Shown here: piece by piece, positions 34,590 to 47,789 of the stretch
How positions within the stretch are numbered: the stretch's first letter is position 1
Layout of the letters: the number at the start of each line of letters is the position of its first letter
From: Flavobacterium sp. Sd200
Lineage (GTDB): Bacteria; Bacteroidota; Bacteroidia; Flavobacteriales; Flavobacteriaceae
Length of the DNA: 64,000 nt
Reading direction: 5' to 3'
NCBI RefSeq assembly: GCF_009826935.1
Contig: NZ_WUMN01000001.1
Span: 558,001 to 622,000, forward strand
Position numbers and translations under genes: made by a program
Notes under the pieces: generated by a model
Seen by the model: the letters and a program-made list of their open reading frames with translations, nothing else
The model's database searches: none
What the model was told of the DNA's origin: nothing

Positions 34590-35612
34590 TTATACTTTAC
34601 TCGAAGCTCTAAACTGTATTTTGGTATGCAGTAATAATGTTTTTTGTTTAGGTACTGCCTTAGTTTTTATTACTTCGGCCAAATTGGTAAGTGCCAAAAA
34701 GCCTATATCTGTTGCCGGTTGCCTAATGGTAGATAGGGGAGGGTTTAGCGCAAAGGCAATATCGGTGTTAGAAAACCCTATAACTGCTATTTCATTCGGT
34801 ACTTTAATTTTGAGTTTTGCCAAAATACCCAATGTGCGTGTGGTAATAATATCTGTTGCACCAAAAATGGCATCAGGTTTACCGCCCGACGATCTAAGTT
34901 TTTTGATCCAATGGCCTATCTTTTCATCTAAAGACTCTATATCTTCGAGATTACAGGAAATTTTAAAATCAGGATCGTATTGTATATCATTTTTTTTCAG
35001 CGCTTCCTGAAATCCCCTAAAGCGGGGATGGTTTTCTCCAAACTGTTCTGCGGTAATAAACACAATCCTTTTACGGTCTTTTTTAATAAGGTGTTGTGTG
35101 GCTTTTAAAGCTCCCATGTATTCATCAACTCCTATTTTTACAGTCTCCAATTCGCAGCTAATGCGGTCAAAAATTATAACCGGGCAGCAGTTTTTTATTA
35201 TTGATGAAATGAAAGATATATTAGCAGATGCATCAACCGGAGCTATTAAAATTCCGTCTACGCCCCTTGATATTAAGGTTTCAAGACAGGATTTTTCGGT
35301 ATCTGTATTTTCAAAGCTCTGCATAATAACAATATCATAGCCAGTTTGCAGCGATGCTTTTTGGATGCCATCCAGCACCTGCGAAATAAAAGTGTTATTT
35401 ATGGAGCAAACTATTACGCCAACTGTGTTTGTTTTGCCGTTCTTAAGGCTGGTGGCTACTTTGTTTGCTCTGTAATTGTTAGTATTTGCAAAATCAATTA
35501 CGCGCTGTTTGGTTAGCGGACTTATTTCGCTAATATCATTTAAAGATTTTGAAACAGTAGACACAGATAGTCCCAAAGCCTTTGCAATATCTTTAATGGT
35601 AATATTTGCCAT
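34590..35612 (-). CDS. LacI family transcriptional regulator
   Basis: A 340-residue repressor or activator. The N-terminal HTH and hinge are textbook LacI (ITIKDIAKALGLSVSTVSKS, hinge NYRANKVATSLKNGKTN), followed by a periplasmic-binding-protein-like sensor domain (VGVIVCSINNTFISQVLDGI to the end). Effector is unknown, most likely a sugar or oligosaccharide of the pectin pathway. The gene is placed inside the locus, after susD and before the deacetylase, so it is probably in the same transcription unit and autoregulated through the susC promoter, where a LacI-like palindrome is seen at 40683-40696. That link is inferred from context and motif only. Confidence 0.92.
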   Translation of the reverse strand: MANITIKDIAKALGLSVSTVSKSLNDISEISPLTKQRVIDFANTNNYRANKVATSLKNGKTNTVGVIVCSINNTFISQVLDGIQKASLQTGYDIVIMQSFENTDTEKSCLETLISRGVDGILIAPVDASANISFISSIIKNCCPVIIFDRISCELETVKIGVDEYMGALKATQHLIKKDRKRIVFITAEQFGENHPRFRGFQEALKKNDIQYDPDFKISCNLEDIESLDEKIGHWIKKLRSSGGKPDAIFGATDIITTRTLGILAKLKIKVPNEIAVIGFSNTDIAFALNPPLSTIRQPATDIGFLALTNLAEVIKTKAVPKQKTLLLHTKIQFRASSKV

Positions 35613-35694: not shown

Positions 35695-37377
35695 TTATTG
35701 AGGATATCCCTCGTTTTGTTCTAACACAGCTTCCCTGTTCCTCTCAATTTCAGAATAAGGAATAGGCAACAGGTTGTGATGAGGCTCAATATCATTGTAA
35801 TAAGTATTAAAACGTGTAACCCTGTCATACAACAATCCAAGGCGGTTTAAGGTTAGCCTCCTTTTTTCTTCCACACCAAACTCTCTCATCCTTTCATCAA
35901 GAATATAATCGATGTTTACTGCCGATGGTGCCACATTACCGGCATTAGAGCGCGAGCGAACCACATTAATATCAGCCGCTGCCGCGGTTGTATTATTAAG
36001 GCGATAGTAAGCCTCTGCGCGTATGAGGTAGGTTTCAGCCAGCCTGAACATATACTGGTCTGTATATGTGCCACCTGCTGTTGCATCTTTTAATAAAAAT
36101 GTACTTGCGTTTTGATACAGGTTCGCAGGATGGTCAAAAGGTGTGGTTACCTTACTTTGATAAGCATAAAAGGCACGGCTTGGAACGGTAATACCAGCAG
36201 GAGGATTCTCGGTAGAGATTATTTGCCCGTATAGTGGAGAGGCAGGATTGGTTGCCTTAAATTCTCTAACAAAATTGTGATTAGCGTTTCTTATGTCATT
36301 AGTCCAGTCGCTTTGCCATATAGTGTTGCTAAAATATACTGTAGATATTGCCCAACCAATGCCACGGCCACCTGTATAATCTCCTATGGGCCAGCTAAAC
36401 GGACGGCTTCCGTTTATTACAATATCCCTGACAGACGGTGCGTGGTGCCTTTCATAAAGCGGTGCACCTGTTCTGGTAGTGGTTACGGCAGCACCGCCCG
36501 GCACATCAGTTTCAAACTGTATTACCCAAAGTGCCTCTGTATTAGACGCATGGTTTTGGTTATTGCGCTGAAAAAGATCCCAGTACACATCGCCCGGTTG
36601 TACACTTATTCTGTTTCCAAACCTTTGGGTCATAAGCCCTGTAGAAGGGTCGTCTATTACCACTGTAGCGGCATCTACTGCGTTTTGATATTGTCCTGCT
36701 GCAAGATATACTTCAGACAGTAAATGGCGAGCCACAAGTTTGTGCACCTGCCCCGGGCTTACCTGTGCTTTTGTACGCAGGTTTTCGGCGGCAAACTGCA
36801 AATCGAGTATTGTTTGGTTTAAAACTTCTTCTTTTGTGGCTCTTACAAAGTCGAGTTTGGGTTCATAAACAGCCTCTGTAATTAAAGGCACACCACCATA
36901 TAAATATACCAGTGTACGATAGCTAAATGCCCTGAAATATCTCGCTTCGGCTTCAACTAAAATTTTTTGCTCATCGGTCATTTCCGATTCGCCTATTTTA
37001 TCCAGTATAATATTAGCTTCAGATATTATCTTAAAAAAGTTTACCCAGTGCACTACGGCAACACTGTTGCTGTCGCCATAAGGGTTCATAGCTCCTTCAT
37101 AATTTGTAAATCGCAGCACATCGGGCTGGCCGTCAAAAACAAGGTCGGTTCCATAAATGTAGTCCATGTTGTTGCGGTCGCCTTTAGAGTAGAACTCGAA
37201 ACGAACCCTATCATACAAATAATTGAGCGACATTTTAAAATCGTCATAAGTGTTCAGAGCATTAGAAGCCGCTAAAAAATCCAAAGGCTCTTCTTCAAGA
37301 AAGTCTTTTTCGCAGGATGTAGATACCATCAGTGCGGCTAAAAGTGGAAGTATTATATATTTTTTCATAGTCTTCAT
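35695..37377 (-). CDS. susD: SusD/RagB family outer-membrane glycan-binding lipoprotein
   Basis: Surface lipoprotein that forms the lid of the SusC channel and captures oligosaccharides. The lipobox is MVSTSC (Cys22 from the ATG at 37377; a second ATG at 37368 would also fit). The N-terminal SusD-like block is EKDFLEEEPLDFLAASNA, helical TPR pairs follow (LVEAEARYFRAFSYRTLVYLYG and HKLVARHLLSEVYLAAGQY), and the C-terminal signature reads RLAETYLIRAEAYYRL with DERMREFGVEEKRR. The 560-residue length is standard. It begins 3 nt after the susC stop codon, the usual coupled pair. The bound glycan is probably a rhamnogalacturonan fragment, judging from the downstream enzymes. Confidence 0.95.
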   Translation of the reverse strand: MKTMKKYIILPLLAALMVSTSCEKDFLEEEPLDFLAASNALNTYDDFKMSLNYLYDRVRFEFYSKGDRNNMDYIYGTDLVFDGQPDVLRFTNYEGAMNPYGDSNSVAVVHWVNFFKIISEANIILDKIGESEMTDEQKILVEAEARYFRAFSYRTLVYLYGGVPLITEAVYEPKLDFVRATKEEVLNQTILDLQFAAENLRTKAQVSPGQVHKLVARHLLSEVYLAAGQYQNAVDAATVVIDDPSTGLMTQRFGNRISVQPGDVYWDLFQRNNQNHASNTEALWVIQFETDVPGGAAVTTTRTGAPLYERHHAPSVRDIVINGSRPFSWPIGDYTGGRGIGWAISTVYFSNTIWQSDWTNDIRNANHNFVREFKATNPASPLYGQIISTENPPAGITVPSRAFYAYQSKVTTPFDHPANLYQNASTFLLKDATAGGTYTDQYMFRLAETYLIRAEAYYRLNNTTAAAADINVVRSRSNAGNVAPSAVNIDYILDERMREFGVEEKRRLTLNRLGLLYDRVTRFNTYYNDIEPHHNLLPIPYSEIERNREAVLEQNEGYPQ

Positions 37378-37380
37378 AGT

Positions 37381-40380
37381 TTAAAAAGTAATATTGACAC
37401 CTACAGAATAACTTTTCATTACCGGCCTGCCATTCTCGTCAAGTCCCTGTCCGGTTTCAGGATCCCAGCCTTTCCATTTTGTCCAGGTAGCAAGGTTTTT
37501 GCCGCTAACAAAAAGGCTTACATCAGAAACCCCTAACTGTTTAACCAGTTTTTGATTGAAGTTATAGGATAGCGATACATCCTGAAGCCTTATAAAGCTA
37601 CGGTCACGATACACTGGTGTGCTTATAGATGGTGCTACAATAGATCTTGGGAATTCTCCATTGGGGTTGCGGGGCGACCAGTAGTCTATATCAGAAAAAT
37701 AATTGTATCTAACCGAGTTGTCATTACGCAATCCGCCAACGCTTGTAGGCAGCATATTGCCAAGATAGCCGTCTTTGCCTCCTTGTATAGAGTTAAAGAA
37801 TATGTTCAGGGTAAAGCCTTTGTAGGTTACAGTATTAAGTAAACTTACACGATAGGCCGGGTTAGTTTGTCCCAGTATAACGCGGTCATCGGCTGTAATT
37901 TGCCCATCGCCGTTAACGTCTACTATTCGCTGCGTTCCTGGGCTGTAACCGCTCGGAATATCATCGCCTATCTGATAGATACCGTCATATTTATAACCAA
38001 ATATTGCCCCTGTTGACTGGCCTATAAAAAGCCCTGCCGATGTAAGGTCGTCTTCGCGCCCATCACCGTCAATATCTTCACCTGTTAAAGCAATAATCTC
38101 ATTCTTGTTCGTAGAAAAATTGGCGGTTGTACTCCACGAAAAGTCTTCACCTTTAATATTTTGCGATGTTAGCTGTATTTCAAGCCCTTTGTTCTGTACT
38201 TCTCCCACGTTTGTTAGTATACTTTGTATTCCAACCAAGGCCGGTAGAGGAACACTAAATACAAGATCATCCGTTTTGTTTCTATAGTACTCTACTGTAC
38301 CCGAAAGCCTTTTATTGAACAGCCCAAAATCCAATCCAAAGTTTAAGCCGATGTTTTTTTCCCAACGCAGGTTAGGATTTTCCAGCCTCGTGGCATTCTG
38401 CCCAAAAACAGGGGTACCGCCGTCGCCATATACATAGCTCCTGCCACGGCCAAAAGTAGGAAGCGATTGATAACGGCCAAGTGTATTACCTGTAGCCCCA
38501 TAGTTAGCCCTTACTTTTAAAAAGTTGAGTGTTTTGTTGTCTTTTAAGAATGATTCCTCAGATACGATCCAGCCCAAAGCCGCTGAAGGGAATATTGCCC
38601 ATTTTTCATTCTTTGCAAATACCGAAGCTCCGTCTCTTCTAACAGTGGCTGTTAAAAGGTATCGGTCTTTAAATTTGTAGTTAACACGTGCCATTTGATA
38701 GTTAAGGGCTTCTCTCCATGCTCCTGAATTAGCAAACTGATTGATGCCCTGTTCCAGGCTGTTATAGCCCATTATTAAAGAGGATATGTCTGATGAGTTA
38801 GACTCTGTTATAGTGCTTTCTCTTTCAATGGCTCCATACAGCAGGGTTACATCTATATCATGCCTGCCAAAGTTGCGCTTGTAGTTTACAATGTTGTCCA
38901 GTGTATAATCATTATAACGGGTGTGGTTCTTGTATGCAGCACCCGTCAAGCCGGCATCATATTTACTTGCACCAAAGTTTTCGCTTATTCTGTAGTTGTT
39001 ACCATAATTTACACGATAAGTTAGGCCCTTAAGAAAAGGAAAGTTTACTATGCCATAAAAATTGCCAAAGAAATCATTCTGTGTAGAGTGGTTTTCTACA
39101 TCGTATGTTAAGAATGGGTTTTGTATATTGGTTCCCGTAGGCGCCGGAATAAGGTTGCCGTTTTCATCATACGGGACTAAAAAAGGAGCCTGCCTTATAA
39201 GTGCATCAAGATCGGGCTCTGCGCCGCTATAATCATTAAACGCAGCAAAAGACTGTACACCAACGGTTAACCAATCGGTAGCTTTGCTTTCAAGGTTTAC
39301 CCTGATGTTCTTACGTTTAAAGTTGTCATTTATTATAAAACCTGCCTGATCTGTTAATCCTGCCGAAATAAGATAATTTACATTATCTGCACCTCCGGAC
39401 ACACTTACTTCATGTTTTTGTATCTCACCCGGATTTGTGCCCGCATCCCACCAGTCAAAATTATTATCTCTAATATTGTTATTTTCATCCAGCATAAAAC
39501 GATCCATACGGGTTGTTATATCAAAAGCCGGGTTAGGAGTAGTATAATCAGGGGCTAAAAAAGCTTCGTCATAATACAAATCCCTAACTTTTTCTAAAAA
39601 TTCATCTCTGTTTAGTGGCCTTAGTTTAGTAGCGGGGGTTTGAGAGGCATAGCTCCAGCTATAGGTAATTTTTGGTTTACCTTTTTTTCCTTTTTTGCTG
39701 GTAATCAGTAATACTCCATTACCAGCCTGAGAACCATAAACAGTAGCTGAACTGGCATCTTTAAGTACTTCTATAGATTCTATGTCGTTAGGGTTAATAG
39801 AGGCAAGAGTACCGCTGTACGGAATTCCGTCAAGTACTATAAGTACGCTTCCATTACCGCTAATGGTATTATTTCCCCTAATTTGTATAGATGGGTTTTG
39901 TCCGGCAGAGTTTACCTGACCTATATTTAAACCCGGAACCGTCCCCTGCAAACTTTGGATAATATTTACGTTTGGTGCTTTCCTGAAGGCTTCGAGGTTA
40001 GCACTGGATACTGCACCTGTAAGGTCTTTTTTCTTCTGTGTACCATAACCCACCACAATTACTTCCTCAAGGGTTTTGATGTCAGGATCCATTCTTACAT
40101 TTAGCGATGTTTGCTCGGCAACAGCTACAGTTTTTTTTGCGTAGCCTATAAAGGAGAATTCCAGTTCAGGGTTTTGAACACCCGAAGGAATGGTTATAGT
40201 AAAATTACCATCCATATCGGTTACGGTCGCAACCGATGTGCCTGAAATAAATATATTAACACCGGGAATTGGAAGGTTTTGCTCGTCATGAACAACCCCG
40301 GTTATTTCTTTGTCCTGCGCTTTTACACTCCAGGAAAACAGAAGTATAAACGAAAAAAATAAAGTAATTTTATTAATCAT
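37381..40380 (-). CDS. susC: SusC/RagA family TonB-linked outer-membrane receptor
   Basis: TonB-dependent channel that imports oligosaccharides. The signal peptide is MINKITLFFSFILLFSWSVKAQ. A carboxypeptidase-regulatory-like domain follows (ITGVVHDEQNLPIPGVNIFI), then a TonB-box-type segment before the plug (LEEVIVVGYGTQKKKDLTGA), the plug (IQIRGNNTISGNGSVLIVLD, VLKDASSATVYGSQAGNGVL) and the 22-strand barrel ending MKSYSVGVNITF. The 999-residue length is typical. It has no extra N-terminal STN domain, so signalling through an anti-sigma factor is unlikely; control is by the HTCS and/or LacI proteins of the locus. A 374-nt region upstream holds a predicted promoter, a palindrome and a terminator-like hairpin. 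Confidence 0.95.
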   Translation of the reverse strand: MINKITLFFSFILLFSWSVKAQDKEITGVVHDEQNLPIPGVNIFISGTSVATVTDMDGNFTITIPSGVQNPELEFSFIGYAKKTVAVAEQTSLNVRMDPDIKTLEEVIVVGYGTQKKKDLTGAVSSANLEAFRKAPNVNIIQSLQGTVPGLNIGQVNSAGQNPSIQIRGNNTISGNGSVLIVLDGIPYSGTLASINPNDIESIEVLKDASSATVYGSQAGNGVLLITSKKGKKGKPKITYSWSYASQTPATKLRPLNRDEFLEKVRDLYYDEAFLAPDYTTPNPAFDITTRMDRFMLDENNNIRDNNFDWWDAGTNPGEIQKHEVSVSGGADNVNYLISAGLTDQAGFIINDNFKRKNIRVNLESKATDWLTVGVQSFAAFNDYSGAEPDLDALIRQAPFLVPYDENGNLIPAPTGTNIQNPFLTYDVENHSTQNDFFGNFYGIVNFPFLKGLTYRVNYGNNYRISENFGASKYDAGLTGAAYKNHTRYNDYTLDNIVNYKRNFGRHDIDVTLLYGAIERESTITESNSSDISSLIMGYNSLEQGINQFANSGAWREALNYQMARVNYKFKDRYLLTATVRRDGASVFAKNEKWAIFPSAALGWIVSEESFLKDNKTLNFLKVRANYGATGNTLGRYQSLPTFGRGRSYVYGDGGTPVFGQNATRLENPNLRWEKNIGLNFGLDFGLFNKRLSGTVEYYRNKTDDLVFSVPLPALVGIQSILTNVGEVQNKGLEIQLTSQNIKGEDFSWSTTANFSTNKNEIIALTGEDIDGDGREDDLTSAGLFIGQSTGAIFGYKYDGIYQIGDDIPSGYSPGTQRIVDVNGDGQITADDRVILGQTNPAYRVSLLNTVTYKGFTLNIFFNSIQGGKDGYLGNMLPTSVGGLRNDNSVRYNYFSDIDYWSPRNPNGEFPRSIVAPSISTPVYRDRSFIRLQDVSLSYNFNQKLVKQLGVSDVSLFVSGKNLATWTKWKGWDPETGQGLDENGRPVMKSYSVGVNITF

Positions 40381-40556
40381 TTTTTATGTTTTATAGTTAT
40401 ACAATTGATTTTTTCGACTGATAATTCCAGTCCCTTAGCTGAGGTTTTAAATTTGCTGTACCTGCTGTAATAGTTATTCATCTTGTTATAATTCATGCTT
40501 GTTATTGGATTTATTTTCTATTAATTAAATTCACTATATCGATTTCGTTTTCGTTT

Positions 40557-40580
40557 GAAAAAAAAACTCCTTTTCAGGAG
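40557..40580 (-). terminator. Terminator-like hairpin in the region upstream of susC
   Basis: On the minus strand CTCCT-GAAA-AGGAG (40580-40567) is followed by ten T. The stem is only 5 bp. It lies between the GH2 stop and the susC start, so it either ends GH2 transcripts or acts as an attenuator in a susC leader. The rest of the 374-nt gap holds AT-rich sequence, a palindrome and a promoter. Confidence 0.4.
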
Positions 40581-40682
40581 ATTCTTCACAGGATTTGAAA
40601 ATTATAAGTCAATATTATAGCTGCCCGCTAAATCGTCATGATTTTACAGGTATAGTACACGATATAATTTTCGTATTTTTTA

Positions 40683-40696
40683 GGGAAGCGTTTCCC
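40683..40696. promoter_or_regulatory. Candidate LacI-family operator
   Basis: GGGAAGCGTTTCCC is palindromic at 12 of 14 positions with a central CG, the form of LacI-family operators. It lies directly downstream of the start point (about 40700) predicted for the minus-strand promoter at 40707-40734, a position suited to repression. The cognate protein would be the LacI regulator encoded at 34590-35612. Confidence 0.45.
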
Positions 40697-40706
40697 AAGT
40701 GGGGAG

Positions 40707-40734
40707 CAAAACTATAAGGATGTTGCTCCCCAAA
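40707..40734 (-). promoter_or_regulatory. Predicted promoter upstream of susC, overlapping a hairpin
   Basis: On the minus strand TTTG (40734-40731), 16 nt and TAGTTTTG (40714-40707) match the Bacteroidetes pattern with a spacer one short of the usual range. The same bases form a 9-bp inverted repeat (GGGGAGCAA 40701-40709 with TTGCTCCCC 40723-40731) just after the GH2 stop, which may be a GH2 3'-end structure instead. Confidence 0.35.
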
Positions 40735-40754: not shown

Positions 40755-43700
40755 CTAGTTTACTTTTTCATAGACTTCAACTTCTACAATACGCAACTGT
40801 CCTTTACCATCGGCGGCGTTGGGATCTTTATACAGGTCCAGCTCTTTATTGCCTGTAATTTCTATGATCTCGCCATAAGCATCTTTATCCTGGCTTTGTC
40901 CTTTTAGCTGAATCTTTACAAAACGGCCTTTTGTTGGTTTTACAGGTATCGATATATATCCAAGACTCTTTTCAGTATCGCCGCTGTACACCTCTTTGCC
41001 ATCAACAGATATGATAATAGGATAGCTTCGCATCCTCCAGCCTGTAAGTTTTAGTTCTATCTCGCTTATTTCTGCATCACGCTCCAGCTCATAAGTAATC
41101 CATCCGGTTTTTATGTCGCCGTTATTTGTCCATTCGCTTAGCTCGTTGTCATCAAAGCTTTGTTTTACTTTATCAGTATTAGTATCTGTAAGTGCCCCCA
41201 CAATTTTTATTGCTTTGCGGCTTTCTTTATAAGATGCACCTTTTGGCGTTGCCCCCCTTTGCAGGTTAGAAGGCTGGTGGTTGCCGCTAATGTATCCTGA
41301 TAATCCGTTCTTTTGTTTAGCTGTTACGGTTGTAAAGCCAATAGATGCAGGTGTTAAGCCCTTTGCTGTTGCACTTAATGTTATTTTGCCCGCTTTGTTT
41401 GTAGAGCGTATAAGTACTCTGTTTACACCACATTCTACCGGAAGTATTTTCGACAGTATGTAGTTGTCTTTTCCCTGTGCTATACCGCCACGCCATTCGG
41501 CAGGGCCATTCAGTTCAAAAGATATGGCATCATTTGCCAATGGGCAACGGTTCCCCTGTGCGTCTACCACTTCAACCTGAACAAGTGCAAGATCGCCACC
41601 ATCGGCTTTAAAACCATCAGGAGCATGCATTTCAGTAAGTTTTATGGCTGCCGGTTTTCCTGCAGTTTTAATTTTAGCGCGGCTAAGTTCTTTTTTATTA
41701 GCGTCATAACTTACTGCCTCTATAGTACCTTCCTGCCATTTAATATCTTTAAAGGTGAATAAAAACCCGTTGCTGCGTTCTCCCATCCCCTGCGACTTGC
41801 CATTTACAAACAGCTCTGCCTGCTCTCCTGACGATACTGCGTAAACATCCTTCACCACATCCGGAGTATAATTCCAATGGCCTACAAGGTGCGTGCGGTA
41901 GTTTTCAACATCTACCCATCCGTCCCACATTACCTGATGGGCATAAAAAGCATCTTTGGCTATGCGCATGGCATCTACCTCGCCGCTGCGCCTGTAGTTT
42001 TCCACACCCCTAAAGTGCGTGTTAGAGTCAGAGAATATAATATTTACTCCCCCAGAACTAACCCTTGTACCTGTGCCGGGACGCACCCTGTAATAATCCC
42101 ACCAGGTTGAAACATCTGCCCTAACAAAAGAATCCTGGTTTTGGTTGTAGGCACGGGCATCTTTCTTTTGGCTTGTGTTCGTTACAGTTGACTTATATTC
42201 GTTAACACCCTCGCCATTTTTATGAAAAGGGTAGGAGTAGTCGTCCCAGTATTTGCGAAGTGCCTCATCACGGCAGTATTCTGTTGCCCACATAGGTATA
42301 TGGGCACTTTTGTTTATATAGAGCATTTCGCCGCCATATTCGGCAATTTGACTATCCAGCATTTCGCGAGATCCTATGGCACGTCCTCCAAACGGGTCAT
42401 ATTTATCGCGTATGGCTTTCATTTCCGCCATGTGTTCTTCAGATATCGATTCGTTACCGCACTCATAAAAAATAATACTTGGGTTGTTGCGGTTGTATAT
42501 AATAGCATCACGCATTAGCAGTGTGCGCAGTTCCCAGCGGCGGCCCTCTACATCTTTTTCAGAATCTCCTGCGGGCATGGCCTGCATAAGCCCCACACGG
42601 TCACAGCTTTCCACATCCTGTTTCCATGGTGTTACGTGCATCCAGCGCACAAGGTTTGCATTGCTGTCTACCATTAGCTTGTTACTATAATCGCTTAACC
42701 AGGCCGGCACGCTCATGCCCACGGCAGGCCACTCGTTACTGGTGCGCTGTGCATATCCTTTCATTTGTATTACACGGTCGTTAAGCCATACCATACCATC
42801 GGCAAAACGTGTTTTCCTAAATCCGGTGCGTGTGTTTACCACATCTACAGGTCTATTGTCTACATAAAGTGTTGTGTAAATATTGTACAGGTAGCCATAT
42901 CCCCAACTCCAAAAATTAAGATTGCCTATTTCTTCTTCTGCCGATAAAACTGCTGTTTCACCCGGTTTAAGTGTTTTATTTGTGCCGGAAAATGTTTTTA
43001 CTACTTTGCCATCCATATCTTCTACTTTAACTTCATAGCGTATGTTTTTGGATGTGTTATGCTCGTTGCGCACTTCCGATTCGGCGCGGATAATAGCCGT
43101 TCTGTTACTAATATTTATCTGTTTGGCATATACATAAGTACCCGTAGTACCCAAATTGCTGTAAAGAGGTAATGTTTGATATACTCTGTCTTTTACATGC
43201 AGGTACACATTTTTAGGAATACCGCCATAGTTGGCATTAAAGTTCTTGTCGTTCCATTGGTAGTTAGACTGTGTGGCACGCTCTTTATATTTCCAGGAGT
43301 TGTCTATGCGTGCAGCTATTATATTGTCTTTACCGTTTGGGTTAAGATAATCTGTTACATCAAGCCCGACAGCCATTACACCATTTTCGTGTATACCGAT
43401 TGATTTTCCGTTGATGTAAAACTCTCCCCCGAAGCGTATGCCTTCAAATTCAATGAACACTTTTTTGCCCTTAGCTTCTTTAGGCAATGCAAAATGCTTG
43501 CGGTACCATACTATAGATGTGCTAAGGCTGTCTATAGGCAGTTTAAAAGCTTCGTCTTCGTTAAAAGCGCGCGGTAAGGTTACTTTTTTCCATGAGGTGT
43601 CGGCCAGTTTTGGGTCGGCACCGTTGGTCACTTCCCCTACATTTACCAGCCACTCACTATTAAAGTTGTATTTTAACTGTTGGTTTTTAGATTGCGATAA

Positions 43701-43766
43701 AAGTTTGTCGGTATTGAAAAATAATACTAAAAATGTAAGAGCTATTACTCTTAAATGCTTGTCCAT
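40755..43766 (-). CDS. Glycoside hydrolase family 2 (beta-galactosidase/galacturonidase-like)
   Basis: Large exported exo-glycosidase, 1003 residues with a signal peptide near MDKHLRVIALTFLVLFFNTD. Domain order: sugar-binding jelly roll (about 70-210, FEGIRFGGEFYINGKSIG), Ig-like (to about 320), TIM barrel with acid/base E439 in FYECGNESISEEH and nucleophile E496 in WATEYCRDEA, a DUF4982-type domain (AELFVNGKSQGMGERSNG), an invasin-like domain (VQVEVVDAQGNRCPLAND) and a C-terminal F5/8 discoidin-like binding domain (GWITYELERDAEISEIELKL). The family covers beta-galactosidases, beta-glucuronidases and beta-galacturonidases; with a PL11 lyase in the locus, action on galactan side chains or on lyase products is likely but not proven. 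It lies between HTCS and susC. Confidence 0.88.
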   Translation of the reverse strand: MDKHLRVIALTFLVLFFNTDKLLSQSKNQQLKYNFNSEWLVNVGEVTNGADPKLADTSWKKVTLPRAFNEDEAFKLPIDSLSTSIVWYRKHFALPKEAKGKKVFIEFEGIRFGGEFYINGKSIGIHENGVMAVGLDVTDYLNPNGKDNIIAARIDNSWKYKERATQSNYQWNDKNFNANYGGIPKNVYLHVKDRVYQTLPLYSNLGTTGTYVYAKQINISNRTAIIRAESEVRNEHNTSKNIRYEVKVEDMDGKVVKTFSGTNKTLKPGETAVLSAEEEIGNLNFWSWGYGYLYNIYTTLYVDNRPVDVVNTRTGFRKTRFADGMVWLNDRVIQMKGYAQRTSNEWPAVGMSVPAWLSDYSNKLMVDSNANLVRWMHVTPWKQDVESCDRVGLMQAMPAGDSEKDVEGRRWELRTLLMRDAIIYNRNNPSIIFYECGNESISEEHMAEMKAIRDKYDPFGGRAIGSREMLDSQIAEYGGEMLYINKSAHIPMWATEYCRDEALRKYWDDYSYPFHKNGEGVNEYKSTVTNTSQKKDARAYNQNQDSFVRADVSTWWDYYRVRPGTGTRVSSGGVNIIFSDSNTHFRGVENYRRSGEVDAMRIAKDAFYAHQVMWDGWVDVENYRTHLVGHWNYTPDVVKDVYAVSSGEQAELFVNGKSQGMGERSNGFLFTFKDIKWQEGTIEAVSYDANKKELSRAKIKTAGKPAAIKLTEMHAPDGFKADGGDLALVQVEVVDAQGNRCPLANDAISFELNGPAEWRGGIAQGKDNYILSKILPVECGVNRVLIRSTNKAGKITLSATAKGLTPASIGFTTVTAKQKNGLSGYISGNHQPSNLQRGATPKGASYKESRKAIKIVGALTDTNTDKVKQSFDDNELSEWTNNGDIKTGWITYELERDAEISEIELKLTGWRMRSYPIIISVDGKEVYSGDTEKSLGYISIPVKPTKGRFVKIQLKGQSQDKDAYGEIIEITGNKELDLYKDPNAADGKGQLRIVEVEVYEKVN

Positions 43767-43828: not shown

Positions 43829-43862
43829 AAACGAAAACGATATTGTTAACAGGGCAAATGTA
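43829..43862 (-). promoter_or_regulatory. Predicted GH2 promoter with adjacent AAACGAAAACGA motif
   Basis: On the minus strand TACATTTG (43862-43855) fits the -7 consensus. Directly downstream, AAACGAAAACGA (43830-43841 on the plus strand) would cover the start point; the same 12-mer occurs in inverse orientation before susC at about 40545-40556. It is a possible shared regulator site. The whole 300-nt gap 43767-44066 shows no gene. Confidence 0.35.
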
Positions 43863-44066
43863 AAACATGAGTAAAAAATGAGCCTGTAAAATTGTCCCGA
43901 ATTACGGGTAAAAACAGACCAACCTCTTGTTTTGGAAGAATAAACGTGAATATTTTGTTGTTTTTTTATTGGATATAAAAAAAAGTAAAAATATTTTTTA
44001 GAATTATTGAACGTTAAATTTGCAACGATTTTAGGGTTGTTGATGCATTGAAAAGACGTATCAATT

Positions 44067-47000
44067 TTATTTTGATGTAATTGTTTTAGCATATTCTGTT
44101 GGTGCCATACCAAATTCTGATTTAAAACATTTCCTGAAATAATCTGCATCGCTAAAACCAACCATATAGGCTACTTCATTAACCGTAAACTTAGATTCTG
44201 ATAGTAGTTGCTGAGCTTTTTTCAGACGAATTTCTTTCAGTATTTCAGAAAGGCTTAGTCCTGTAAGGTCTTTAACCTTCCGATAAAGCTGACTCCTGCT
44301 TACCCCAATGCCTATACAAATTTCTTCTACTCCAAGTTCGGGTTTCGATAAATTATTTTCAATAAATGCTAAAAGTTTTTGCAATAGCTTTTCATCGGCC
44401 GAAAGAGGTATCTCTTTTGCAGGCTGTACAGATATTTCTTTGCGGTATTTTTCTTTTAAATTTTGTCTCAATATGAGCAGGTTTTTAATACGGGCAGACA
44501 GTGCAGAGAGGTTAAATGGCTTAGTAATATAATCGTCGGCACCGTTTTCTATTCCTTCAATTTCAGATTCAACAGGATCCTGAGCCGTAAGCAGCACTAC
44601 GGGTATGTGAGAAGTTTTAATATCATTCTTTATTTTTCGGCACAATTCAAAACCGTCCATTTGCTCCATCATCACATCCGATATTACAATATCAGGCTGT
44701 TCCTGTATGGCAGTTTTAAATCCTTCGGTTCCATCAGATGCTTCCAATACAGTATAAGTATTAGAAAAGTAATCTTTTAGATAGGCTCTTAATTCTATAT
44801 TATCTTCTACTAAAAGTATAGTATTGACTTTTTTTGCCCCAATGCCTTTTTCCTGAATGGGGATTATAGCATTATCCGTAATATCATTAATTGCTATGAA
44901 CTCATTATTTGTATCAGCATCATACGTTTTTAAAGGCAACGTTACTGTAAATGCAGTTTGATTTTGACCTATGGCTGAATATTTGCTCTCAACTTCTATT
45001 GTTCCGCCATGGAGCTCTACAAGCCCTCTGCTGTATGCAAGCCCTAAACCTGTACCGCCCGAGCTATGTTTTTTTCCTTGTTTAAATGGCAGAAAGATTA
45101 CTTCACTGTCTTCATCAGATATTATTTCTGTAGCGGTATTTGTAACTTTAATTACTGCGTTTTGTTCATTCTCTTTTGAGGAAAAAGAGAAATTTACGTC
45201 TATTTTTCCTGATACAGGCGTAAATTTTAGTGCGTTAGACAAAAGGTTGTAAATTACTTTTTCCATTTTGTCTTCATCATAAAGAAATATGCAACTGCTT
45301 ACATTATGATTAAAGGTCAAGCTAATATTTTTTGACGCTGCGTTATCTTTAAAGGACGCTATTACAGTATGTAAAAAAGCTATTATGTCATAATTTTTAA
45401 GTTCAGGTTGTAAATTGCCTGTTTCGAGTGTCCTGAAATCAAGAAGCTGATTAACCATTTTCACCAATCTTTCACCACTAAGGCGCATGGTTAAGAGTTG
45501 AGTATATATAGCTTTATTTTCGGCAAACATGTTTGTAAGCCTTTCCAATGGGGCAAGTATGAGGGTTAGTGGCGTTTTAATTTCGTGAGAGATGTTCGTA
45601 AAGAACTGAAGCTTGTTTTGATACAGTTCGTTTTCCTGTTTGTGCATAAGCTCCTCATAAGCCAGTTTTGTTTTAAGCCCTGATACCCGTGCCGAATATT
45701 TATGGTAGGTGTAAAAACTGCCGGCTATAATTATGATATAACAAAAATATGCCCATCCGCTGGCCCAAAAAGGAGGTAATACTTCTATATTTAATACAGT
45801 TGGAACAGTATTCCAAACACCGTCGCTGTTTGAAGAAATAACCTTGAAGGTATATTTGCCTGATTGAAGATTGGAGTAGGAGGCAACCCTGCGTGTGGCA
45901 TCAGTATATACCCAGTTTTTATCGAACCCTTCAAGTTTATAAGCATATTTATTTGCTTGGGGGTTAGAGTAATGTAAGCCTGCAAATTCTATCGATATAC
46001 TTTTGTCATTATATTTTAGCTCAATTTGTTTGGTTAAATATAATGGCTTTGTTAATACAACCCTGCCGTTTATTTTTTCGTTGATCTGTACCGGACGGTT
46101 GAGTATCTGTAATTCTGTGAGTACGGTAACAGGCAGTGTTTTTTCCGGTAGAATATCATCAGGATTAAAAATATTAAATCCGTTATTGCCCCCAAAATAC
46201 ATTTTGCCGTTACTATCTTTAAAAGCGGCTCCGGCAGAAAACTCCTGACTTTGCAGGCCATCCTGTAAACCATAGGTTCTTACGCTCATCCGTTTTTTAT
46301 GCAGTTGCGATATACCTTTTTTATGGCTTATCCATAAAAAGCCTTTGTCATCTTCTAAAATAGAGACGACAGAAGATTTTAAGAACTGATCATTAGCAGA
46401 AAGGTTCGTAAATGTTTTGTTTACAGGATCATACTTATCTAACCCATTTCCGGTACCGATCCATATTATTCCGCTTTTATCTTCATAAATGCAGTTTATT
46501 CGGTTATCGCTTACAGAGTTTCTATCTTCATTATGAACAAAATGCGCTGTAACTTTAAACTCATCAGAATTCGCTACCTGTTTAAGTACGCTTATCCCAC
46601 CGGTATTGCCGCCTATTCCTTCGCACCCAACCCATATTTGGCCTTTTGAATCCTGCATAACAACCCGTGTGTGGGCATGCAGCATCATTTTTTCCGGGCT
46701 GTAGTTTATAAAAATGTCTTGTTTTGGTTTGTATTTATAAACTCCGTTCCAGCTTGCAATTAATATATTATGCTCATTGTCTTCGTTAATGCCAAAAACG
46801 GTAGTGTACCTTACTTTTGCAGACAGATCGCTGAAAACTCCCGTCGAGGGATTATAACAGTTGAGCCCTTCTTTAGTGCCTATCCATATAACTCCGCGCG
46901 AATCACAAAAAACGGAGCGTATCAAATTGCTCGTTATTGAACCTGGCCCTTTTTGAAGATGCCGTGTTTTATTGCCAATTACAGTAATACCCTTATCACG

Positions 47001-47789
47001 CGTACCCACCCAGATATTTCCGGTCTTGTCTGTACAAATAGAGGTTATATTATTATCTGCTAATGATTGTTTTACAAAAGGATCATGATAAAAATGCTGA
47101 AAGGGCTTTGCTGCCAAGTTTGCTTTATTAATGCCGTTGCTATAAGTGCCTACCCATAATATATCGTGATTATCTTTATAGATATCTGTTACATAAGCGT
47201 CATTTAATTGTCCGGGATTTATTGAGCCTTCTTCATAGATCTTTGTTACGCCCGATCTTATATTTGTTTCTATAAGACGGTTTCTTGGAACCTCAATTTT
47301 CCATACATAATCCTTAAAATTAGCTTTGGTTTTACTAATATGTTTTCTTCTGTCTGTCCATAAAAAAATAGAGTCGGCAATTTCATTTCTTTTAAACCTG
47401 TCAAAGTTATCTTTTTCATAGTTGTAGCGGCACAACTCATCATCCTCAAAAGTGCGTATCCAGATGTTCTGCTCTTTGTCAAGCTTTAGGGTATGTATCC
47501 TGTTGTTATTGATACTTTTTTTATCCTTTGGATTGTACATATAGGTTTTAAAAGAATACCCGTCATAACGGCACAATCCGTTCCAGGTTCCAAACCAAAT
47601 AAAACCATATTTGTCTTTAACTATGCCCAATACAGTGTTTTGGGGCAGGCCGTCATCTGAAGTAATGTGATTAAACCGGATAATTGGATGTTGAGAAAAT
47701 GCCTCATGTATGCTACAGCCAATAAGTAAAAACATCATTACAATATAAAGATGCTTTTGGTTAAGGATATAGCAAATAGGTTTCAACAT
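44067..47789 (-). CDS. Hybrid two-component system sensor-regulator (HTCS)
   Basis: Single-chain sensor kinase and AraC-type regulator that detects an oligosaccharide in the periplasm and switches on its polysaccharide locus. The 1240-residue protein starts with a signal/membrane segment (YIVMMFLLIGCSIHEAFSQ), then two seven-bladed Reg_prop propellers (repeats such as GFIWFGTWNGLCRYD, NIWVGTRDKGI, GIIWIGTGNGLDKYD), a Y_Y_Y domain (about 600-690), a membrane helix (GWAYFCYIIIIAGSFYTY), HisKA with H735 in NISHEIKTPL, a HATPase domain (GGTGLGLAYSRGLVEL), a receiver domain with D1038 in VISDVMMEQMDG, and a C-terminal AraC HTH (ICIGIGVSRSQLYRKVKDLT). All catalytic residues look intact. It heads the locus beside GH2. 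Confidence 0.95.
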   Translation of the reverse strand: MLKPICYILNQKHLYIVMMFLLIGCSIHEAFSQHPIIRFNHITSDDGLPQNTVLGIVKDKYGFIWFGTWNGLCRYDGYSFKTYMYNPKDKKSINNNRIHTLKLDKEQNIWIRTFEDDELCRYNYEKDNFDRFKRNEIADSIFLWTDRRKHISKTKANFKDYVWKIEVPRNRLIETNIRSGVTKIYEEGSINPGQLNDAYVTDIYKDNHDILWVGTYSNGINKANLAAKPFQHFYHDPFVKQSLADNNITSICTDKTGNIWVGTRDKGITVIGNKTRHLQKGPGSITSNLIRSVFCDSRGVIWIGTKEGLNCYNPSTGVFSDLSAKVRYTTVFGINEDNEHNILIASWNGVYKYKPKQDIFINYSPEKMMLHAHTRVVMQDSKGQIWVGCEGIGGNTGGISVLKQVANSDEFKVTAHFVHNEDRNSVSDNRINCIYEDKSGIIWIGTGNGLDKYDPVNKTFTNLSANDQFLKSSVVSILEDDKGFLWISHKKGISQLHKKRMSVRTYGLQDGLQSQEFSAGAAFKDSNGKMYFGGNNGFNIFNPDDILPEKTLPVTVLTELQILNRPVQINEKINGRVVLTKPLYLTKQIELKYNDKSISIEFAGLHYSNPQANKYAYKLEGFDKNWVYTDATRRVASYSNLQSGKYTFKVISSNSDGVWNTVPTVLNIEVLPPFWASGWAYFCYIIIIAGSFYTYHKYSARVSGLKTKLAYEELMHKQENELYQNKLQFFTNISHEIKTPLTLILAPLERLTNMFAENKAIYTQLLTMRLSGERLVKMVNQLLDFRTLETGNLQPELKNYDIIAFLHTVIASFKDNAASKNISLTFNHNVSSCIFLYDEDKMEKVIYNLLSNALKFTPVSGKIDVNFSFSSKENEQNAVIKVTNTATEIISDEDSEVIFLPFKQGKKHSSGGTGLGLAYSRGLVELHGGTIEVESKYSAIGQNQTAFTVTLPLKTYDADTNNEFIAINDITDNAIIPIQEKGIGAKKVNTILLVEDNIELRAYLKDYFSNTYTVLEASDGTEGFKTAIQEQPDIVISDVMMEQMDGFELCRKIKNDIKTSHIPVVLLTAQDPVESEIEGIENGADDYITKPFNLSALSARIKNLLILRQNLKEKYRKEISVQPAKEIPLSADEKLLQKLLAFIENNLSKPELGVEEICIGIGVSRSQLYRKVKDLTGLSLSEILKEIRLKKAQQLLSESKFTVNEVAYMVGFSDADYFRKCFKSEFGMAPTEYAKTITSK

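Follow-up and report, generated by a model that had tools for sequence, protein, structure and literature searches.

A candidate LacI-controlled boundary between GH2 and susC in a Flavobacterium pectin locus

Introduction

What is the role of the 374-nt gap that separates GH2 from susC in a locus of Flavobacterium sp. Sd200, and where might the LacI-family protein encoded in the same locus act? The window, i.e. the whole stretch of 64,000 nucleotides analysed here (contig NZ_WUMN01000001.1, positions 558,001 to 622,000), carries on its minus strand, in this order, genes for HTCS, GH2, SusC, SusD, LacI, a polysaccharide deacetylase, a SASA esterase and a family 11 rhamnogalacturonan lyase (PL11) (Table 1). 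A sequence-only reading had recognized in the gap a promoter, a CG-centred palindrome of LacI type and a terminator-like hairpin, and had taken them, on condition that the promoter is real, for parts of a long susC leader subject to repression and possibly to attenuation; the alternative it named was the 3' end of GH2 transcripts.

Table 1. Features of the locus, in minus-strand order (window coordinates)
Feature	Position	Strand	Basis
HTCS hybrid two-component regulator	44067..47789	-	Pfam Reg_prop, Y_Y_Y, HisKA, HATPase_c, Response_reg, HTH_18
Direct repeat GGTCTGTTTTTAC / GGGACAATTTTAC, candidate HTCS site upstream of GH2	43886..43920	-	repeat also in F. seoulense L089
GH2 -7 box TACATTTG, predicted start 43850	43855..43862	-	sequence
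Candidate LacI-type operator AACGAAAACGATATTGTT, +4 to +21 of predicted GH2 start	43830..43847	+	matrix scan
GH2 glycoside hydrolase	40755..43766	-	Pfam
Predicted promoter TTTG-N16-TAGTTTTG, start 40702	40707..40734	-	sequence; consensus and placement from PMC9723704
Strong hairpin GGGGAGCAA-N13-TTGCTCCCC, overlapping the predicted promoter	40701..40731	-	fold; sequence
Palindrome GGGAAACGCTTCCC (GGGAAGCGTTTCCC on the plus strand), proposed earlier as LacI-type site	40683..40696	-	sequence
Central stem-loop of the predicted 146-nt RNA	40597..40672	-	MFE and centroid structures
Intrinsic terminator CTCCTGAAAAGGAG + T9	40558..40580	-	sequence; recurs beside stop codons in other genomes
Candidate LacI-type operator AACGAAATCGATATAGTG, directly behind the terminator	40532..40549	-	matrix scan
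39-codon ORF, TGA overlapping the susC ATG (ATGA)	40377..40496	-	sequence
SusC	37381..40380	-	Pfam
SusD	35695..37377	-	Pfam
LacI-family regulator	34590..35612	-	Pfam LacI + Peripla_BP_3 (PF00356, PF13377)

Results

Elements of the gap

The promoter-like TTTG-N16-TAGTTTTG, the palindrome and the hairpin lie where the sequence-only reading had put them, and its distances hold: the terminator ends 177 nt before susC, and the leader would measure 322 nt if transcription started at 40702. The LacI gene is indeed found downstream of susD on the same strand, and its product contains both the LacI HTH and the periplasmic-binding-like sensor domain (PF00356, PF13377). Two details had to be amended: the palindrome has its CG centre and palindromic arms at the position given, with one of the seven pairs broken, and the hairpin (CTCCTGAAAAGGAG at 40580-40567) is followed by nine T (40566-40558) and then C, instead of ten T.

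On the minus strand, TTTG (40734-40731) and TAGTTTTG (40714-40707) are separated by a 16-nt spacer. TAGTTTTG is an exact TAnnTTTG, the consensus flavobacterial -7 box, and the sole exact one on the coding strand of the gap; since this box sits at -12 to -5 as described in PMC9723704, the predicted start is 40702. TAnnTTTG boxes number 93 on both strands of the window, where 20 Markov sequences average 91; the box by itself is therefore not above chance. The leader promoter is a prediction. The -7 box is contained in a strong hairpin (40731-40701) that is absent from the sequence-only reading. No exact TAnnTTTG box was found between the terminator and susC, so the start of susC is unexplained unless transcription passes the terminator. 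As to the identity of the gap, a repeat or mobile element was rejected: the 374-nt gap has no second copy in the genome (best non-self E 0.03), and the hairpin pattern GGGGAGCAA-N13-TTGCTCCCC has a single match in the whole genome.

Candidate LacI operators

The nearest relatives of the locus LacI, collected from 150 genomes, comprise a paralogue in the same genome (60% identical, beside the UxaC and UxuA genes), a protein from a similar uronate cluster in genome G024 (57–58%) and one from F. limi (50%); those found sit in uronate or susCD clusters. These three loci share a CG-centred motif, present before susC in all of them and before the uronate genes in two; CG-centred even palindromes are described as the general operator form of the LacI family (PMC4052901). 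Two LacI-type sites flank a susC promoter, TACTTTTGGTCTATAA.ACCATAAG, common to both uronate clusters (L049, 2320-2460; L050, 15030-15220), an arrangement that could permit looping there.

A matrix built from seven sites of these three loci ranked 40532-40549 first (16.2 bits) and 43830-43847 second (14.7 bits) among 63,983 positions of the window, the third-best position scoring 11.8 bits. In 30 Markov sequences of the same length, equal or better sites numbered 0.03 on average for the former and 0.2 for the latter (best single score, 16.9). These ranks are partly circular, because some training sites were picked for likeness to the window site: a 17-nt match had first drawn attention to 40532-40549, and three training sites out of seven (one per locus) were chosen for their resemblance to it. 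As controls for circularity, we used six- and four-site matrices, from which two look-alike training sites were left out together with F. limi; the four-site matrix consists of the sites common to both uronate clusters, chosen without regard to the window. With it the two window sites ranked 20th and 25th of 63,983 (8.8 and 8.6 bits), the best position, elsewhere, scoring 14.3; when F. limi was added to the four, they ranked 6th (40532-40549) and 11th (43830-43847). This weaker outcome of the non-circular test reduces our confidence in the LacI-operator reading, and the case therefore rests on the place of the sites, in the two promoter spacers of the unit, together with the other targets of the motif.

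Site 40549-40532 begins 8 nt past the T-run and lies 151 nt before susC; it would occupy +154 to +171 of a transcript started at 40702, or else stand on the path of read-through from GH2. The position of the other site, 43830-43847, fits classical repression of GH2. Note that the paralogous LacI (60%) could bind the same candidate sites.

Other targets of the motif

Of the 20 matches to the long consensus in the genome, all of which were inspected, 8 are exact and 12 have one mismatch; the reversed pattern gives 11. Thirteen are intergenic and seven inside reading frames. Ten of the intergenic matches adjoin susC and GH2 of the locus, C3 susC (two), the uronate operon, GH115 (two), pectate lyase/pectinesterase, GH28/GH2 and GH43 genes; three are not next to such genes, and two of these precede large secreted proteins with fn3 and GEVED domains. 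Besides uronate, glucuronoxylan and pectin genes, the motif precedes two further susC genes of this genome; a site unused in training, scoring 20.8 bits, lies 166 nt before a third susC. A shorter version of the motif gave 35 matches genome-wide, below the 48 of its reversed control. In five other genomes, matches to the long consensus do not clearly exceed those to the reversed pattern (G024, 17 versus 15; G374, 20 versus 27; F. fluvii G351, 14 versus 12; G258, 16 versus 26; F. limi G060, 24 versus 36). The exact matches lie inside reading frames in G374 and F. fluvii and at the start of an unrelated gene in G258; in G024, all three are in the uronate cluster.

Related loci

The closest orthologous locus is that of F. 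seoulense (L089; HTCS 63%, GH2 78%, SusC 75% and SusD 79% identical), which comes from a genome collection other than the 398 genus and 397 family genomes that we searched with SusC. Those searches (two candidates scored per genome, the two sets overlapping) gave SusC matches of at most 56% identity, none closer than F. seoulense. The 21.7-kb stretch of F. seoulense examined contains no LacI match, and the first two genes listed behind susD encode an aldo/keto reductase and a short-chain dehydrogenase. Its GH2–susC gap measures 159 nt, with no counterpart of the terminator block, and the best LacI-motif scores are 2.9 bits at the GH2 promoter region and -1.3 in the gap. The GH2 promoter keeps its -7 box, TATATTTG, at the aligned place. 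The direct repeat GGTCTGTTTTTAC/GGGACAATTTTAC upstream of GH2, which we tentatively assign to HTCS, is shared with F. seoulense and absent from the GH2–susC gap and from the region upstream of GH2 in F. fluvii and F. limi.

No LacI match was found in the stretches of F. fluvii examined, where the scores are 4.5 and -3.6 and the GH2–susC gap is 44 nt. F. limi has lacI and a susC site and lacks a GH2 site (best score, 4.4 bits). As judged from the loci compared, lacI and the susC operator would thus go together, and the GH2 operator does not always accompany them; the absence of both sites where lacI is absent is documented in one locus, that of F. seoulense.

We estimate at about 0.52 the probability that the GH2–susC gap separates two transcription units of a rhamnogalacturonan/pectin locus and is a boundary under LacI control. 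The LacI-family protein encoded after susD would control both units by binding an 18-bp CG-centred operator, of about WACGAAWACGWTNTAGTW, at the GH2 start and behind the terminator. When no pectin or uronate signal is present, LacI would block initiation at GH2 and bar RNA polymerase from susC-susD-lacI; its release would require an inducer, which is probably a uronate or a sugar derived from pectin. Most transcripts of GH2 or of the gap would end at the terminator. What we can point to are the sites, the recurrence of the motif by related genes and the absence of the sites in the one locus where lacI is absent; binding, repression, the inducer and the place of the susC transcription start are what we infer. 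LacI control, as the sequence-only reading had proposed it, is supported for the unit, through 40532-40549 and the GH2-promoter site, and probably not through GGGAAACGCTTCCC.

The palindrome and the long susC leader

GGGAAACGCTTCCC was central to the control first proposed: a susC transcript starting at 40702 would carry a 322-nt leader, with repression by LacI at the palindrome (+7 to +20) and attenuation at the terminator (+123 to +145). In favour of this alternative are the single exact -7 box on the coding strand of the gap and the position of the palindrome, whose centre lies 16 nt after TAGTTTTG, close to the 15 nt between the GH2 LacI-type site and its own box; such a spacing would be fitting for an operator. 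RNA running from 40702 to the T-run also folds better than shuffled sequences (z -3.45; 1 of 200 shuffles as good). CG-centred 14-mers equally good or better number 20 in the window and 11–17 in five Markov sequences. However, the association of the box with such a palindrome is suggestive at most and compatible with chance: a TAnnTTTG box with one in the next 30 nt is seen once in the window, where 20 Markov sequences average 0.3.

Comparison with other sequences speaks against the palindrome. The genome holds one exact copy of GGGAAACGCTTCCC, and its near matches (19) equal those of the reversed control (19). We collected 63 SusD-related loci and took as leader the 500 nt before the longest susC frame; seven loci were left out (susC or its start missing, or too close to the locus edge), and GGGAAACGCTTCCC is absent from all 56 usable leaders, an outcome that the sequence-only reading had named beforehand as refuting. 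The three LacI-linked susC leaders, of which one belongs to the 56, lack it as well. Its absence from the closest relative is a weakened test, because F. seoulense is also without a nearby lacI. Finally, GGGAAACGCTTCCC fits the motif of the LacI relatives poorly in all three matrices, with 1.4 bits and 612 window positions scoring higher for the seven-site matrix, 743 for the four-site matrix and 719 for the four sites plus F. limi. Given the single genome copy, the 56 leaders and this poor fit, GGGAAACGCTTCCC is probably not the operator of the locus LacI. Its use by another LacI of the genome was considered and rejected: the near matches and the palindrome itself are more than 5 kb from five of the eight LacI-family genes.

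Two further points weigh against the control first proposed: the 5' UTRs of F. psychrophilum have a median length of 24 nt and a mean of 65 nt, as given in PMC9723704, and the MFE and centroid structures, computed from the single sequence, both leave the terminator formed. Attenuation in the susC leader is possible, and conserved support for it was not found. Taken as a whole, this alternative strikes us as quite improbable. Under the LacI-boundary reading, GGGAAACGCTTCCC, which as RNA forms a 5-bp hairpin, would either have no role or open a structured RNA as its first hairpin.

Terminator and fold of the gap RNA

Within 1.2 kb, two terminator-like sites are found, one per strand, against 0.6 expected. 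A comparison of the 198 nt of the gap from 40754 to 40557 with 398 Flavobacterium genomes, with two candidates scored for each genome, gave no full-length relative of the block; the matches were all short and reached about 50 nt at most; among the 50 non-self matches listed, the terminator hairpin alone (query positions 168–198) accounts for 22. In all four loci of other genomes that we inspected, this hairpin lies in a spacer, 8–31 nt from a stop codon; three of these spacers separate convergent genes and the fourth two genes on the same strand. The terminator hairpin belongs to a recurrent gene-end type. CTCCTGAAAAGGAG is a nearly symmetric terminator hairpin that recurs in the genus (L192, L195, L197 and L198, near 1507).

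The 3' end of GH2, which the sequence-only reading had kept as its alternative, gains weight from this placement beside stop codons. In its strict form, this alternative sees in the whole block 40754-40557 nothing more than a structured 3' end of the GH2 mRNA with its terminator; transcription of susC would then come from read-through or from a promoter that escaped recognition. A strong fold does begin about 23 nt past the GH2 stop (z -4.29 for the RNA 40754-40557, with none of 200 shuffles as good), and the shorter gaps of F. seoulense and F. fluvii suggest cotranscription in these species. However, if the GH2 promoter, which has its own site, drove all susC transcription, susC would not need a LacI site of its own. 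We hold this account to be a tentative one, credible though short of even odds, and note that it is compatible with a LacI-controlled boundary.

The same fold could belong to a free-standing small RNA of about 146 nt (40702-40557), located between GH2 and susC and ending at the terminator, with the palindrome as its 5' hairpin. A predicted start, the 5' hairpin, the central stem-loop and the terminator do follow one another in order in an RNA that folds better than nearly all its shuffles (see above), and B. thetaiotaomicron is described as having many intergenic small RNAs and susC-linked antisense RNAs (PMC7366714). Homologues with conserved structure were nevertheless not found: the 398 genus genomes gave only the short matches already mentioned, a single-sequence structure model, run with strict filters on 299 genomes, gave no clear relative (its next best match, in the same genome, has E 0.3), and Rfam gave no family in the gap at gathering score and none near it at E <= 10, the matches all being sub-threshold. 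The fold of the gap RNA is supported as a prediction; that it marks an independent small RNA is unlikely.

Discussion

Our comparison suggests a LacI-regulated pectin locus of known kind, whose operator was probably misassigned earlier. The locus LacI resembles KdgR, UxaR and UxuR, the LacI-family uronate regulators of Bacteroides described in PMC3878776 and PMC4052901, by family and by its candidate targets, among which are genes of uronate catabolism. Here the regulator gene lies inside a susCD/HTCS locus with PL11, and the candidate sites flank GH2 and susC. The rhamnogalacturonan loci of Bacteroides described in PMC3878776 likewise combine HTCS, susCD, pectin enzymes and a direct repeat as candidate HTCS site; here, by contrast, a local LacI layer would be added, which is absent from the closest orthologous locus, that of F. 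seoulense.

CcpA is known to act as a roadblock in hut and gnt, at distances comparable to that of the susC site. More generally, an operator located downstream of a promoter can stop the elongating polymerase, as described for LacI, GalR, PurR and CcpA (PMC10310618, PMC4132739). The present locus differs from these systems in that the candidate operator, known from sequence alone, begins 8 nt past the T-run of an intrinsic terminator, so that a polymerase stopped by LacI would stand near the terminator. One may then imagine that LacI, when it occupies 40549-40532, arrests RNA polymerase while the active site of the enzyme is on the T-run and so makes a leaky terminator efficient, an idea that we consider very improbable. 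It is just as speculative that an inducer would let the polymerase pass both obstacles, a single protein thereby setting termination efficiency in the susC leader. A narrow literature search found no publication on repressor-enhanced intrinsic termination. The terminator–operator arrangement is the one feature that merits experiment. With its operator just beyond a terminator, it lends itself to asking whether a repressor can set termination efficiency.

The analysis also illustrates that comparing the relatives of a regulator can lead to a better operator candidate than picking out a palindrome by eye. It yields, for Flavobacterium, a pectin/uronate LacI motif that can be put to the test and that precedes three susC genes in a single genome.

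Two minor observations concern susC itself. The ATGA overlap between the 39-codon ORF and susC resembles translational coupling and is possibly due to chance; a comparison by eye with F. seoulense found no counterpart of this ORF. Eight SusD-related loci from Chitinophaga and its relatives have a LacI gene nearby, about 30% identical (L121, L124, L127, L128, L129, L132, L134 and L147). Four of them carry a different CG-centred motif, near TGCAACCGATTGCA, before susC (L121, L127, L134 and L147, at about -213, -131, -308 and -138, respectively), which may mean that this susCD type came under LacI control more than once.
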